From NCBI GenBank assembly GCA_017540505.1, contig JAFYAW010000026.1, forward strand, positions 17,342 to 81,341: a stretch of DNA of 64,000 nt, read 5' to 3'. The translations under genes were made by a program, and so were the position numbers. Below are positions 52,945 through 64,000 of this stretch, in pieces (positions within the stretch are counted from its first letter, which is position 1; every line of letters begins with the position of its first letter). A model generated the notes under the pieces. The model worked only from the letters and a program-made list of their open reading frames with translations. It searched no databases and had not been told where the DNA came from. The DNA is from Bacteroidales bacterium (GTDB lineage Bacteria; Bacteroidota; Bacteroidia; Bacteroidales; WCHB1-69).

Positions 52945-53050
52945 GGATTATCAAAGATTATTTCCCTTCGCTCAGTTTCTTGTAACCCTCGTAACGGAGT
53001 TTCGCGAACTGCTCGGTCTTGGCGAACAACTCCTTGGCTTCGGCCGGGAA

Positions 53051-53116
53051 AATTCGTGCAAACCGAATGCAAAACAAACTTGTTTGCTTTGCTGAGGTGA
53101 AGCCGAATTTATATAA
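53051..53116. repeat. 66-bp in-frame insertion with inverted ends
   Basis: Absent from the other nifJ 3' end. It begins AATTCG and ends CGAATT plus ATATAA, and has a central palindrome CAAACTTGTTTG (53075-53086). It adds 22 codons without shifting frame. It resembles a small non-coding repeat family of Bacteroidales (from memory, not checked). Confidence 0.7.
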
Positions 53117-53138
53117 CGTCTTCAACAAGCTGTTGTAA

Positions 53139-53191
53139 CGGACCTCGCCCATGATGAAGTCTTGGAACTTGCTCCAGTCGGGTTCCTTGCT
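53139..53191. repeat. 53-bp perfect direct repeat, island left copy
   Basis: Identical to 63374-63426. It ends exactly where nifJ similarity is lost and marks the left border of the island. Confidence 0.92.
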
Positions 53192-53212
53192 TGCTATCAA
53201 GGTCACCTTATC

Positions 53213-53372
53213 ATCCTTTCCAACTTCGTTTTCCACTTCTCTCAATGTGGCATCTCATTGGTCAACAACGCATAAAACTCTTTGGTGTGATTTTGATGTA
53301 CCAAATGACAAAGTTCATGGGTAATGACGTGTTCAATTGGAGTTGTATAGTGAATGTCTTATCTCAAAGAGG
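53213..53372 (-). pseudogene. Remnant of a YgjP/DUF45-type metallopeptidase
   Basis: Minus-strand translation gives 'TPIEHVITHELCHLVHQNH' followed by 'TKEFYALLTNEMPH', a stop (TGA) and 'EKWKTKLERM'. This is the zinc-binding HELCH...H region and C-terminal end of a YgjP-like metal-dependent hydrolase, with TGA where the family normally has tryptophan. The 5' part is missing. Such genes commonly accompany type I restriction loci, so this may be debris of an earlier system. Confidence 0.7.
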
Positions 53373-53415
53373 ACAAATATTTTAGGGTGCATAGTGACAG
53401 AATAAGAAAAATTTA

Positions 53416-53423
53416 TATTTTTG
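53416..53423 (+). promoter_or_regulatory. -7 box (TATTTTTG) of the WbuC gene
   Basis: TATTTTTG on the plus strand lies about 70 bases before ATG 53493. Confidence 0.5.
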
Positions 53424-53492
53424 TCCCTTGTTTTACACAAAATAAGAGGAATAAGGAGGGGTTGACACATTTTCGTATCAGGAGAAAACATT

Positions 53493-61450: not shown

Positions 61451-61452
61451 AA

Positions 61453-62274
61453 TTATTGTATTATCTGGTTTATAAATTCGTTTAACGTCGTGAAATTGTA
61501 AACAGATGGAATTGCAGCAAAGGCTTCCTGCAATTTGTTTTTTGCACTATTCCAACCAATACCATCGGTTATCCATATAAACTCAAATCCGTCAATAGCA
61601 TTTATCTTAGGTGCAATATCTGTATATGAACGGGCTACCTCATTCAGTTTTGAGCCTCCACCAGAATAAAAGTTCACTTCTATCAAATATGTCTTATCTT
61701 CAGTTGAAATAACAAAGTCAAACACTTTTTGATCTGCTCCTAATGCTGTTGCAACAAGTGGAAATTCATTTGACGACACTTGTTGTCTGTATGCAATTCC
61801 TGCAGTAGTGAATATTTTTGCTACGAGTGATTCTGTTATCTCACCACTCCTGTTTTTGCGAGCATTTGTATCCAAGCCAGTTTCCACTCCAAACACATAA
61901 TCAACAAGATCTTTTATTTCTTGGTTACGGAACACATCGGCAAGCCCTGTGCCATCGAGAAATTCCATTATACCATCAACAGTCTGAAACAAAGAATGTA
62001 CTTTTCGGAATCGTCCTGCCTCATCGAAGAACATTTTGTTGTCTTTCTTGCGTGTGGCGATAAGAATATCCATAACATCAAAGACTTTCTTGTCTCGATT
62101 CCATAATGCTTCAACAGCCGCCCTTAAATCAGTTTTGCCTATCAGAAAATTGAGCATATTTAGGCTGATAGCAATATCATCTACATTCTTTGCAATTTTC
62201 TTGAAATCACAGTAGAAATTAAGTGTCGCATTAGTCTCCTTCAATTGAGACATAAAAGTGTTAAAATCTGTCAT
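61453..62274 (-). CDS. DpnII-like type II restriction endonuclease (GATC)
   Basis: The 273-residue protein matches the DpnII/MboI family: 'GSGGGSKLNEVARSYTDI'-like region, here 'NFYSGGGSKLNEVARSYTD', then 'FEFIWITDGIGWNSAKNKLQEAF', with a probable catalytic D and E in 'KVFDFVISTEDKTYLIEVNF'. It would cut unmethylated GATC. The DpnII methylase flanks it (stop of methylase 3 bases before its start), the standard type IIP layout. Confidence 0.88.
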   Translation of the reverse strand: MTDFNTFMSQLKETNATLNFYCDFKKIAKNVDDIAISLNMLNFLIGKTDLRAAVEALWNRDKKVFDVMDILIATRKKDNKMFFDEAGRFRKVHSLFQTVDGIMEFLDGTGLADVFRNQEIKDLVDYVFGVETGLDTNARKNRSGEITESLVAKIFTTAGIAYRQQVSSNEFPLVATALGADQKVFDFVISTEDKTYLIEVNFYSGGGSKLNEVARSYTDIAPKINAIDGFEFIWITDGIGWNSAKNKLQEAFAAIPSVYNFTTLNEFINQIIQ

Positions 62275-62277
62275 AAA

Positions 62278-63189
62278 TTATATAGCTAACATTCGTTTGG
62301 TCTGTACATAATTATGTACAAGTATCTCTTGCAATTTCCCTCTTTTGGCTGGATTGGCATTCACATTACGCGATGCCCAAACTCGGTCAATAATATATTC
62401 AAGGTATAAATCTTCAAAAAAACGGTCTTGTATAGGTGTATTAAAACAATCAGAATTGCTTAACATAAAAGAATATCCAGCTTGCATAATACGATCGCAA
62501 AATTCTTTTAATCTTGTTTGGGCAAGGTCGTTAAACGCATCTTTAGTATAGTCATTAAAACTTGATGTGTTGCTCAATGGGCGATAAGGAGGGTCAAAAT
62601 AGAACAATGTTGTACCTTCTGCCCTGTTAAATGTCTGTTGATAATCACCCGTGCAAATTTCAACATGTTGAAGAAGCTCACTGTCGGCATATATAGTACC
62701 AGGATCGCATATCATCGGAGTTTCGTATTTCCCAAAAGGAACATTGAACAGCCCCGATTTGTTCACGCGATATAAGCCATTAAAGCAGGTTCTATTGAGA
62801 AAGAAAAACAAAGTGGTGTTTCGAATAGGCTCCAACTTTTTTGTGTTATATTCATCCCTTTTCTCTAAATAGAACTCTTTTCGAGAATTCTCTGTTTGTA
62901 AAGAATAGTATTCTTTTTGTATTTGTTTGAGTGATGTAATTAAACTATCTGGAGCATCTCTGACAACCTTATAGCAAGTTGTCAAATCCTCATTAATGTC
63001 ATTGATAACAGCTAACGTAATGTTTGGGTGATTTTGTAGCATGTGGAAGAGCATAGCTCCCCCTCCCACAAAGGGTTCAATGTAAGTAACATTCTCCCAT
63101 CTATCAAAGTCAGCAGGAAGTAGTGCCTCCAGTTGTTCGATGAGTTGACCTTTGCCGCCAACCCACTTGACGAATGGTTTTGCTTTCAT
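62278..63189 (-). CDS. DpnM-like Dam-type adenine methyltransferase (alpha class)
   Basis: The 303-residue N6-adenine methyltransferase has 'FVKWVGGKGQLIEQL' (SAM-binding loop, 6-20), 'YIEPFVGGGAMLFHML' and the catalytic 'FYFDPPYRPLSNTSSF'. It is the first gene of the four-gene restriction-modification unit and should methylate GATC. It starts 14 bases downstream of the nifJ terminator; no clear promoter is visible in that gap, so expression may come from read-through or a cryptic promoter. Confidence 0.92.
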   Translation of the reverse strand: MKAKPFVKWVGGKGQLIEQLEALLPADFDRWENVTYIEPFVGGGAMLFHMLQNHPNITLAVINDINEDLTTCYKVVRDAPDSLITSLKQIQKEYYSLQTENSRKEFYLEKRDEYNTKKLEPIRNTTLFFFLNRTCFNGLYRVNKSGLFNVPFGKYETPMICDPGTIYADSELLQHVEICTGDYQQTFNRAEGTTLFYFDPPYRPLSNTSSFNDYTKDAFNDLAQTRLKEFCDRIMQAGYSFMLSNSDCFNTPIQDRFFEDLYLEYIIDRVWASRNVNANPAKRGKLQEILVHNYVQTKRMLAI

Positions 63190-63202
63190 TTTACCTAAAG
63201 TT

Positions 63203-63238
63203 AAAAAGAGGGGAGGGTGTTAAATACCTCTCCCCTCC
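63203..63238 (-). terminator. Terminator after nifJ
   Basis: The minus strand GAGGGGAG(A)GG pairs with CCCTCCCCTC (one bulge), followed by five T. It separates nifJ from the restriction-modification operon. Confidence 0.82.
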
Positions 63239-63258
63239 ATAATTATTGATTTTCGAGC

Positions 63259-64000
63259 TTACTTCTCCTCGCTCAACTTCTTATACCCTTCGTATCTCAG
63301 CTTAGCGAATTGCTCGGTCTTGGCAAACAATTCCTTGGCCTCTTCGGGGAAGGTCTTCAGCAAGCTGTTGTAGCGGACCTCGCCCATGATGAAGTCTTGG
63401 AACTTGCTCCAGTCGGGTTCCTTGCTGTCCAAGTGGAAACCGTTCTTGCCGGCCTCTTCCTCGGCAGGGTTGAAACGCCACAGGTGCCAGTAACCGCACT
63501 CGACGGCCTTGGCCTCTTCGTGCTGGGAACGACCCATGCCGACCTTGATACCATGGTTGATACACGGAGCGTAGCAGATGACCAAGGAAGGACCATGATA
63601 AGCCTCAGCTTCCTTGATGGCTTTGAAGTACTGAGCCTGGGAAGCGCCCATAGCGACCTGTGCCACATACACGTAGCCGTAGCTCTTGGCAATCATGCCG
63701 AGGTCTTTCTTGCGGACCTTCTTACCGGAAGCGGCAAACTTGGCCACAGCACCTGCCGGAGTAGCCTTTGAAGACTGACCACCCGTGTTGGAGTAAACCT
63801 CCGTGTCGAGCACGAGCACGTTGACATCCTCGCCGCTGGCCAGCACGTGGTCCAGACCGCCGAAACCGATGTCGTAAGCCCAACCGTCACCACCGAAGAT
63901 CCACTGGCTGCGTTTTGCCAGGAAATCCTTGTTGGCCAACAGTTCAGACTCAAGCTCGCAACCGTGGCAAGGACAGATGGGGCTGCCGGCTTTCTTAGCC
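63259..64000 (-). CDS. nifJ: Pyruvate:ferredoxin (flavodoxin) oxidoreductase, C-terminal part (5' end off right edge)
   Basis: The last 247 codons are visible, and the frame stays open at 64000. NifJ oxidises pyruvate to acetyl-CoA and CO2 using TPP and reduces ferredoxin, central to anaerobic metabolism. The visible part has the TPP/Mg motif '[18 protein letters not shown]' and '[15 protein letters not shown]', then the C-terminal domain ending '[14 protein letters not shown]'. Upstream 'CPCHGCELE' includes cysteines of the domain. Two other partial copies of this 3' end lie within the island to the left. The gene has its own terminator. Confidence 0.95.
63374..63426. repeat. 53-bp perfect direct repeat, island right copy
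   Basis: Identical to 53139-53191, inside the functional nifJ 3' end; 10.2 kb separates the two. Confidence 0.92.
63848..63909. repeat. 62-bp perfect repeat in functional nifJ
   Basis: Identical to 57760-57821. Confidence 0.88.

Follow-up and report, generated by a model that had tools for sequence, protein, structure and literature searches.

The stretch considered here, hereafter the window, comprises 64,000 nucleotides (nt) from a Bacteroidales bacterium of the WCHB1-69 lineage (assembly GCA_017540505.1, contig JAFYAW010000026.1, positions 17,342 to 81,341), and its last part holds an island of defence genes beside nifJ, which encodes pyruvate:ferredoxin oxidoreductase. The genome that carries the window (G000) is an assembly of 2.5 Mb in 51 contigs, and its contig terminates at window base 64000, so that the cut falls inside nifJ. 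As the initial annotation had observed, three nifJ 3' ends are found in the window; the defence genes that separate and adjoin them are a DpnII-type restriction system and two GmrSD genes (Table 1). The same annotation took one of the three for a functional gene: its last 246 codons do match the TIGR02176 profile, but the gene is not whole because the contig ends there, and its integrity may be presumed from relatives, in which whole nifJ genes encode about 1180–1250 amino acids (aa). Apart from a weak 25-bit match elsewhere, the TIGR02176 profile revealed no other nifJ pieces in G000.

Between the intact nifJ copy and fragment 2 lie both methyltransferases, the DpnII endonuclease, the 175-aa protein and a split GmrSD-type gene, whose N- and C-terminal parts stand in different frames and which is probably inactive. 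Between fragments 2 and 1, the NERD, RES-match and cupin genes occupy the strand opposite to nifJ, and a YgjP-like remnant lies on the nifJ strand. Past fragment 1 follow a palindrome, a hairpin, a second GmrSD-family gene, the second copy of the repeat found on the side of that hairpin, and ybjQ. The island is a stack of several insertion layers and comprises more than one element. Elsewhere in the window, the minus strand carries an open reading frame (ORF) of 2480 aa (37157–44599), and the palindrome GTAGAGACG...CGTCTCTAC of the displaced nifJ 3' region is present a second time at 31467–31494.

Table 1. Features of the nifJ-associated island (window coordinates).
Feature	Position	Strand	Evidence
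ybjQ, neighbour beyond the island	50653..50961	-	PF01906 1.2e-32
Direct repeat copy B, before ybjQ, beside a second hairpin (51037-51072)	51008..51045	-	D7
GmrSD-family gene (PADLOC HEC-06/Orf5)	51111..52787	-	PF03235 1.2e-37, PF07510 2.3e-22, HEC-06 4e-206
Direct repeat copy A, GmrSD flank (pair of 51008-51045)	52843..52880	-	D7, 38 nt, 95%
Hairpin in the 3' region of the displaced nifJ, judged terminator-like by eye	52871..52907	-	10-nt arms, 17-nt loop (exceeding the loop limit of the hairpin scan)
Perfect 30-nt palindrome, displaced nifJ 3' region	52915..52944	.	Inverted-repeat reading
nifJ fragment 1, displaced tail from -167, with 64-bp insertion (53051-53114)	52955..53191	-	Repeats, window identities
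YgjP-like metallopeptidase, C-terminal remnant directly upstream of fragment 1	53192..53360	-	PF01863 1.1e-12
Cupin (DUF6016) gene	53493..53894	+	PF19480 1e-24
362-aa protein, weak RES-domain match under the cut-off	54011..55099	+	PF08808 8.5e-4
630-aa protein, nuclease-related (NERD) domain	55474..57366	+	PF08378 4.8e-5
nifJ fragment 2, body and most of tail	57373..57898	-	Repeats, profile, cross-genome alignments
GmrSD-type restriction gene (N-part 58622-59722, C-part 58047-58607)	58047..59722	-	PF03235 1.3e-31, PF07510 6.5e-10
N6/N4 DNA methyltransferase	59742..60959	-	PF01555 2.3e-56
175-aa protein within the restriction-modification operon	60923..61450	-	No Pfam/PADLOC match at thresholds used
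DpnII-type restriction endonuclease	61453..62274	-	PF04556 9.6e-98
D12-class N6-adenine DNA methyltransferase	62278..63189	-	PF02086 1.5e-57; PADLOC MTase_II
Terminator-like hairpin after the intact-copy nifJ	63208..63237	-	Inverted repeat, 8-nt arms, 14-nt loop
Intact-copy nifJ (pyruvate:ferredoxin oxidoreductase), last 246 codons	63259..64000	-	TIGR02176 380.9 bits

The 53-bp perfect repeat described earlier for the edges of the island (53139–53191 and 63374–63426) is indeed exact. It forms part of a longer repeat, D4 (53115–53191 and 63350–63426, 96%), and is perfect because the mismatches of D4 all lie at its low-coordinate end; a further repeat, D3, pairs 52955–53050 with 63256–63351 at 78%. 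Since the sequences are homologous nifJ, a chance origin of the matches is excluded, and the 53-bp repeat can also be dismissed as a special recombination site, given that fragment 1 is identical there (53/53) to five other genomes. The 64-bp insertion of fragment 1 contains a 10-pair hairpin and occurs as a single copy in the G000 genome, which rules out a dispersed repeat. The adjacent YgjP-like remnant covers positions 166–206 of the 207 of its profile and includes one stop (given as X); with its N-terminal part missing, it does not represent a gene interrupted by fragment 1. Fragment 2, with matches at 57373–57432 and 57419–57718 (87% each), has lost about 174 bp internally as well as its last ~27 nt, and carries a TAG stop.

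When compared with relatives, the intact copy proves to be composite. These relatives were found by sequence, and most of them are uncultured Bacteroidales sampled from the rumen, from horses or from other guts. The G genomes are metagenome assemblies and represent one species each, so that comparisons among them are between species. The body of the intact nifJ is of the type found in G027, and its last ~90–115 nt belong to another allele: identity with G027 is 97% over the body but falls to 73% over the final 90 nt. Counted from the stop codon, the intact copy is identical to G027, G029, G038 and G080 at 55/55 positions from -170 to -115, whereas the last three 30-nt windows share only 24–26/30, 22–27/30 and 20–28/30 with the same four relatives. 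Over six relatives, differences amount to 17–44/580 between -700 and -120 and to 9–24/90 in the last 90 nt. For G027 (17/580 and 24/90), the tail exceeds all 50 body windows of 90 nt, the maximum of which is 10, and the same holds for G029 (18, largest body window 12) and G037 (23, largest 13). Third-position identity between G000 and G027 is 56.7% in rpoB, 91.7% in the nifJ body and 33.3% in the tail, while body and tail agree in G013–G008 (84.3 and 83.3%) and in G061–G056 (62.1 and 63.3%); thus, the tail is not simply a fast-evolving part of the gene. Among seven genomes compared pairwise, 213/269 tail differences fall at third positions, which marks allele exchange rather than decay.

Both tail alleles are present among relatives with near-identical nifJ bodies. 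Fragment 1 is identical to G029 at 53/53, 24/25, 30/30, 29/30 and 27/30 positions and matches the intact tail of G037 at 62/63 nt, compared with 49/63 for the intact tail of the window itself; the tails of G032, G038 and G080 are more like that of the intact copy in G000. The simplest reading is that fragment 1 would be the resident end and that the intact copy would have acquired the other tail. Hence, of the earlier statement that nifJ had been restored with a foreign 3' end, the change of allele stands, and which of the two tails is foreign is a matter of likelihood, because both circulate among the relatives. The alignments also fit a displacement of the other nifJ end together with its palindrome and hairpin, as previously suggested: fragment 1 (217–222 nt) with its 3' region aligns at 78–81% with the intact nifJ end and downstream sequence of G027, G029 and G032, and the 3' region also aligns with the nifJ end at the start of a G057 contig. 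Of the uninterrupted order from nifJ to ybjQ that had been predicted for related strains, the part comprising nifJ, palindrome and hairpin is seen in G027, G029 and G032. Palindromes resembling that of the window were noticed by eye 3' of nifJ in G029 and G032 and in the G023 fragments.

Fragment 2 appears to have a different history. Its homology extends ~75 nt further with nifJ of the G008/G013 type than with the type of the window itself (92% over 480 nt with G008, 89% over 403 nt with the window's own type), and it probably derives from a further source. These affinities bear on the idea that nifJ was duplicated in tandem within one genome, with subsequent decay and unrelated insertions. 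The fragments are degraded and some second copies are long (L100, L137), as a duplication would leave them; however, fragment 1 resembles the tails of other genomes more than that of the intact copy in the same genome, fragment 2 belongs to a different nifJ type, and neither the 3' bias nor the defence cargo would be explained, so that we regard such a duplication as hardly plausible.

The arrangement recurs. A search of 104 genomes of the family with the nifJ tail gave matches in 62, eight of which, from four genera, carry at least two nifJ tails on one contig and strand (G000, G017, G027, G032, G056, G061, G074 and G081), and four more carry two tails on different contigs. Comparing genomes with their own nifJ at the DNA level adds G023, with two 100% matches of 34 and 26 nt, as well as G013, which has an internal nifJ piece. 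Displaced 3' ends on the same strand were also counted in named loci, the best 78 of 579 as ranked by nifJ-tail match, fragment content not being a criterion: they follow 8/58 nifJ ORFs (those with at least 2 kb downstream) and 5/460 other ORFs (p 1.3e-5). Among the eight, L138 is itself a rearranged piece of nifJ, and leaving it out gives 7/57 against 5/460 (p 7e-5); three of the eight are again G027, G056 and G023; the five non-nifJ hits include one full-length paralogue, one short tandem repeat and two from a single genome (L145, L152). A wider count (13/70 nifJ against 5/623 others) includes loci chosen for holding fragments, and for this reason the 78-locus and 62-genome counts are the ones relied on. 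An earlier control, which excluded loci with any shared 120-mer, was discarded as too coarse. No displaced tails were seen in the 12 most distant named loci (L153–L164), three of which have less than 350 nt downstream.

Since the assemblies are metagenome-assembled genomes (MAGs) or come from uncultured bacteria, false nifJ copies might arise from strain chimeras during assembly or binning. Contigs end in or beside nifJ in G000, G017, G033, G057 and G084, the MAG RGIG5467 has two different nifJ tails on small contigs (L089 and L131), and L089 includes all 4500 nt of the G080 nifJ contig. Nevertheless, fragments also lie within long contigs (349 kb in G027, 351 kb in G032, 165 kb in G061 and 163 kb in G023), most are diverged from the intact copy, two are fused in frame to cargo genes, and fragments recur in MAGs of different projects, which leaves an artefact only a very slim chance.

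The cargo beside nifJ varies between genomes and is rich in defence genes; variable genes beside a conserved nifJ in many genomes are what a recombination-driven hotspot would present. For instance, a Gabija system lies just past the G027 fragment (GajA 1.6e-199, GajB 2.9e-177), and other loci hold HEC-01, PDC-M56, TIR-NLR, Ppl and several restriction-modification (RM) systems, together with MNT/HEPN pairs, a Schlafen-like protein, KilA-N and DUF3990. The cupin stretch of the window and its 3' neighbourhood recur within ~340 nt of nifJ fragments in G017, G024 (in part) and L094, and in G008 the start of a gene related to the D12 methyltransferase directly follows nifJ. A stretch of ~170 nt is common to L068:4996-5164 (oriented), L165:4581-4753 (oriented) and L166:1266-1441, ahead of methyltransferase genes in different cassettes, and may be a shared regulatory region or a recombination point. 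In L169, a Schlafen-like gene just before the nifJ fragment lies between its own 95-nt direct repeats (85%; 4306-4400 and 5885-5978). Some cargo might in principle install itself by homing: its endonucleases would cut naive recipients at nifJ or in the 3' region of nifJ, and repair would then copy the island in. An HNH protein with homing-endonuclease-associated repeats does lie directly after nifJ in G013 (L070:4606-5568), and a similar HNH gene after a nifJ fragment in G081 (L166:4000-4965). HNH was seen in these two loci and not searched elsewhere, and most of the scanned cargo is without such a domain; homing therefore seems a most improbable explanation.

Cargo is also found on the 5' side of nifJ. 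Upstream regions were compared in 11 genomes, G061 having been dropped from the original 12 because its nifJ start was not located, and in most pairs homology ends within a few dozen bases of the start of nifJ. In G038, the block that precedes nifJ (58/58 identical to G032) is displaced to ~2.3 kb upstream; the genes in between are a DNA methyltransferase and an unknown gene of 330 aa (L202 / L076). We take this block to be a putative promoter, from its Bacteroidetes-type sequence. The region upstream of nifJ in G008 (85% over 156 nt) lies ~1.5 kb upstream in G013 (L204), separated from nifJ by KilA-N and YhcG nuclease genes; in G008, which is 96% identical to G013 in the rpoB region, the putative promoter region and nifJ are uninterrupted, a comparison that covers the 5' side only. 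Compared with G032, G027 (L199) carries an additional 2.1 kb inserted at about -85, comprising a sigma factor (not defence) and an unknown gene. The insertions between pre-nifJ region and start codon in G038, G013 and G027 mirror the 3' pattern.

On the 3' side, the fragments hold 21, 26, 34, 44, 64, 75, 84, 109, 167, 216 nt of nifJ and more, L100 and L137 each having at least 680 nt; the majority extend to the stop codon. The joints, which were read by eye, show one homologous end and another at variable, unrelated points: the RM cassette common to G032 and G081 (96% over 2387 nt) ends in 44 nt of nifJ in one case and 216 nt in the other, and the related Schlafen-like genes of G074 and L093 (77% over 1585 nt) are followed by 64 and 109 nt, respectively. 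An ATPase gene of G023 continues in frame into the final codons of nifJ, as does a 72-aa gene in L090. Target duplications accompany both (107 nt, 98%, in G023; 102 nt, 97%, in L090) and include the region past the stop codon; long direct repeats also flank the cargo in G017 (123 nt, 84%) and one GmrSD gene of the window (D7).

Could a tyrosine or serine recombinase have used an attachment site in the nifJ 3' end, restored by the incoming element? The restored 3' end with a remnant downstream is reminiscent of integration at tRNA genes, and some repeats are exact (21, 26 and 34 nt). However, the starting points of the fragments vary widely, which rules out a fixed attachment site, and cargo enters on the 5' side too. 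The earlier remark that no integrase is visible agrees with the search: none of 32 PF00589 (tyrosine-integrase) matches in 11 genomes lies within 30 kb of nifJ, several contigs ending near the gene so that the full 30 kb is not always visible, and an integrase in cis is thereby ruled out within that range. Integrase or transposase families are likewise absent from 70 selected proteins, genome-wide searches for transposases and serine recombinases not having been made. Altogether, site-specific integration appears very unlikely.

The body of nifJ itself points to exchange between species. Between G000 and G027 it is 97.1% identical, against 80.9% in the rpoB region, and 19 kb of the same G000 contig reach ~65–82% in relatives of genus g1 among the listed matches of at least 400 nt; relative to rpoB and to these 19 kb, recombination in the anchoring core gene is raised. 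A body much more alike than rpoB is a feature of G000, G027, G029, G032 and G038, and may be a sign of repeated gene replacement. G008 and G013 show the opposite pattern (rpoB region 96.3%, nifJ body 91.6%). In trees of 10 genomes, rpoB supports g1 at 100/100, whereas nifJ rejects a g1 clade (p-AU, approximately unbiased test, 1.3e-46), also without G080. These trees are to be read with the caveats that the G080 contig is short and that G023 and G061 share a low GC content at third positions (GC3), which is why nifJ exchange between genera is put forward only as possible; moreover, with its nifJ contig wholly contained in L089, G080 or RGIG5467 may be misbinned, which weakens the evidence at this level.

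Taken together, these observations are probably best accounted for by a process that has acted repeatedly, in which one end enters by homologous recombination inside nifJ and the opposite end by illegitimate joining. Chromosomal DNA arriving from a different strain or species would pair with nifJ and cross over inside the gene, and its second end would be joined at an unrelated point, often within the 3' end of the recipient's own nifJ. The product would be a whole nifJ with donor tail and donor 3' region, followed by the cargo and then by the recipient's displaced tail, palindrome and hairpin; repeated events would stack layers, and displaced tails could later serve as right-hand homology for further transfer. 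Such a combination would explain the changed tail, the remnant, the variable right joints, the fusions of cargo genes with nifJ and the absence of an integrase. The proposal of the initial annotation that homologous exchange at nifJ loads defence cargo thus gains support from the allele change, the recurrence, the differing cargo and the integrase search. As part of this explanation, the nifJ transcription unit would be a site where defence genes settle time and again in this group of Bacteroidales, with no need of an integrase of its own, and phage pressure may be the driver.

A related route is integration of the Campbell type, in which an excised circle of cargo and nifJ tail would enter the tail of a recipient nifJ through RecA, reversibly. 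Its product would be indistinguishable from that of homologous recombination with illegitimate joining, the cargo does lie between direct repeats of 33–219 nt, and an AAA cassette occurs in G013 and G056 together with one shared nifJ fragment on its right-hand side (93% over 2457 nt), so that some units do travel whole. Integration of a circle, however, predicts divergence on both sides of the crossover, while G000 shows complete identity over the first 53 nt and 78% over the final 96; some repeats (33–44 nt) barely exceed the RecA threshold of ~30 bp quoted in PMC2884548; and the same cargo with different right joints would require several independent circles. We consider this route unlikely, though not negligible.

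Several points weigh against homologous recombination with illegitimate joining as set out above. The excess of tail differences is clear for only 3/6 relatives and lies within the body range for G032 (14, largest body window 14), G038 (11, 13) and G080 (9, 14). The shared right joint of the AAA cassette and the contig ends that shorten the integrase search have been mentioned, as has the circulation of both tails. Across 10 fragments, the 5' half is the better matched in 5, equal in 3, near-equal in G027 and worse in G032. Part of the cargo has no obvious defence role, such as the proteases in G017. DNA might enter the cell by competence, for which ComEC- and DprA-family genes are present, but both are widespread and do not prove it. 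Finally, the reading draws on metagenome-assembly sequence with one genome per species, from which we infer the transfer itself.

A bolder reading, which we offer tentatively and rate at somewhat below even, is that nifJ acts as a vehicle: its body would move between species, perhaps genera, by homologous recombination, and defence genes would travel within the transcription unit both ahead of the gene (from promoter to start codon) and behind it (from stop codon to displaced terminator), while selection for the cargo would homogenise the enzyme gene. Displaced tails would keep the locus ready for a further exchange, in effect a defence locus able to move without any mobility gene. In practical terms, phylogenies of this group can be misled by a housekeeping gene of the kind of nifJ, and displaced 3' ends (or promoters) of core genes offer a route to finding hotspots. 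Because displaced ends are sequence-level scars of single events, the crossover point, the possible donor and the order of loading can be studied.

Several known systems share part of this pattern. Homology-facilitated illegitimate recombination, described in three competent species according to the review PMC2884548, would be the joining pattern under the explanation favoured here. Insertion with long target duplication places RM genes between long, variable direct target repeats (Nobusato et al. 2000, as cited in PMC1643837 and PMC3031569); the repeats of 102–107 nt at 97–98% are similar, but here one gene is used in many genomes, the cargo goes beyond RM and the flanks carry different 3'-end alleles. 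In Vibrio, effectors of the type VI secretion system (T6SS) are displaced sequentially, leaving arrays of immunity genes, with homology-facilitated illegitimate recombination discussed and displacement of Rhs C-terminal parts cited (Kirchberger et al. 2017, PMC5361080). New modules likewise displace part of a resident gene and old parts pile up downstream, whereas at nifJ the anchor is a housekeeping enzyme kept intact and the cargo is rich in anti-phage defence, not toxin–immunity pairs.

Further parallels are with hotspots of exchange at core genes. According to PMC5635113 (2017), many homologous-recombination hotspots lack mobile elements and integrases, their flanking core genes recombine more, and double recombination at the flanks has been proposed. 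Variable cargo, a recombining core gene and no integrase or transposase found are common to both; at nifJ, a single conserved gene seems to suffice, the joint at the opposite end has an illegitimate look, a scar persists in the form of the displaced gene end, and exchange appears to take place across species. In the core defence hotspots of Pseudomonas aeruginosa, diverse systems lie between core genes, often without mobile genes, and homologous recombination of the flanks is suggested as a transfer route, as an open question, by Johnson et al. (2023, PMC10250203), where the gain of cargo by defence islands without mobility genes is named as future work. Among the literature matches listed, no report ties nifJ or pyruvate ferredoxin oxidoreductase to genomic or defence islands. 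What is new is the combination: defence cargo is anchored repeatedly, and on both sides, at the gene of a housekeeping enzyme, and the displaced ends serve as the record. The transfer suggested for P. aeruginosa would leave no mobile-element scar, whereas at nifJ the displaced gene ends record it.

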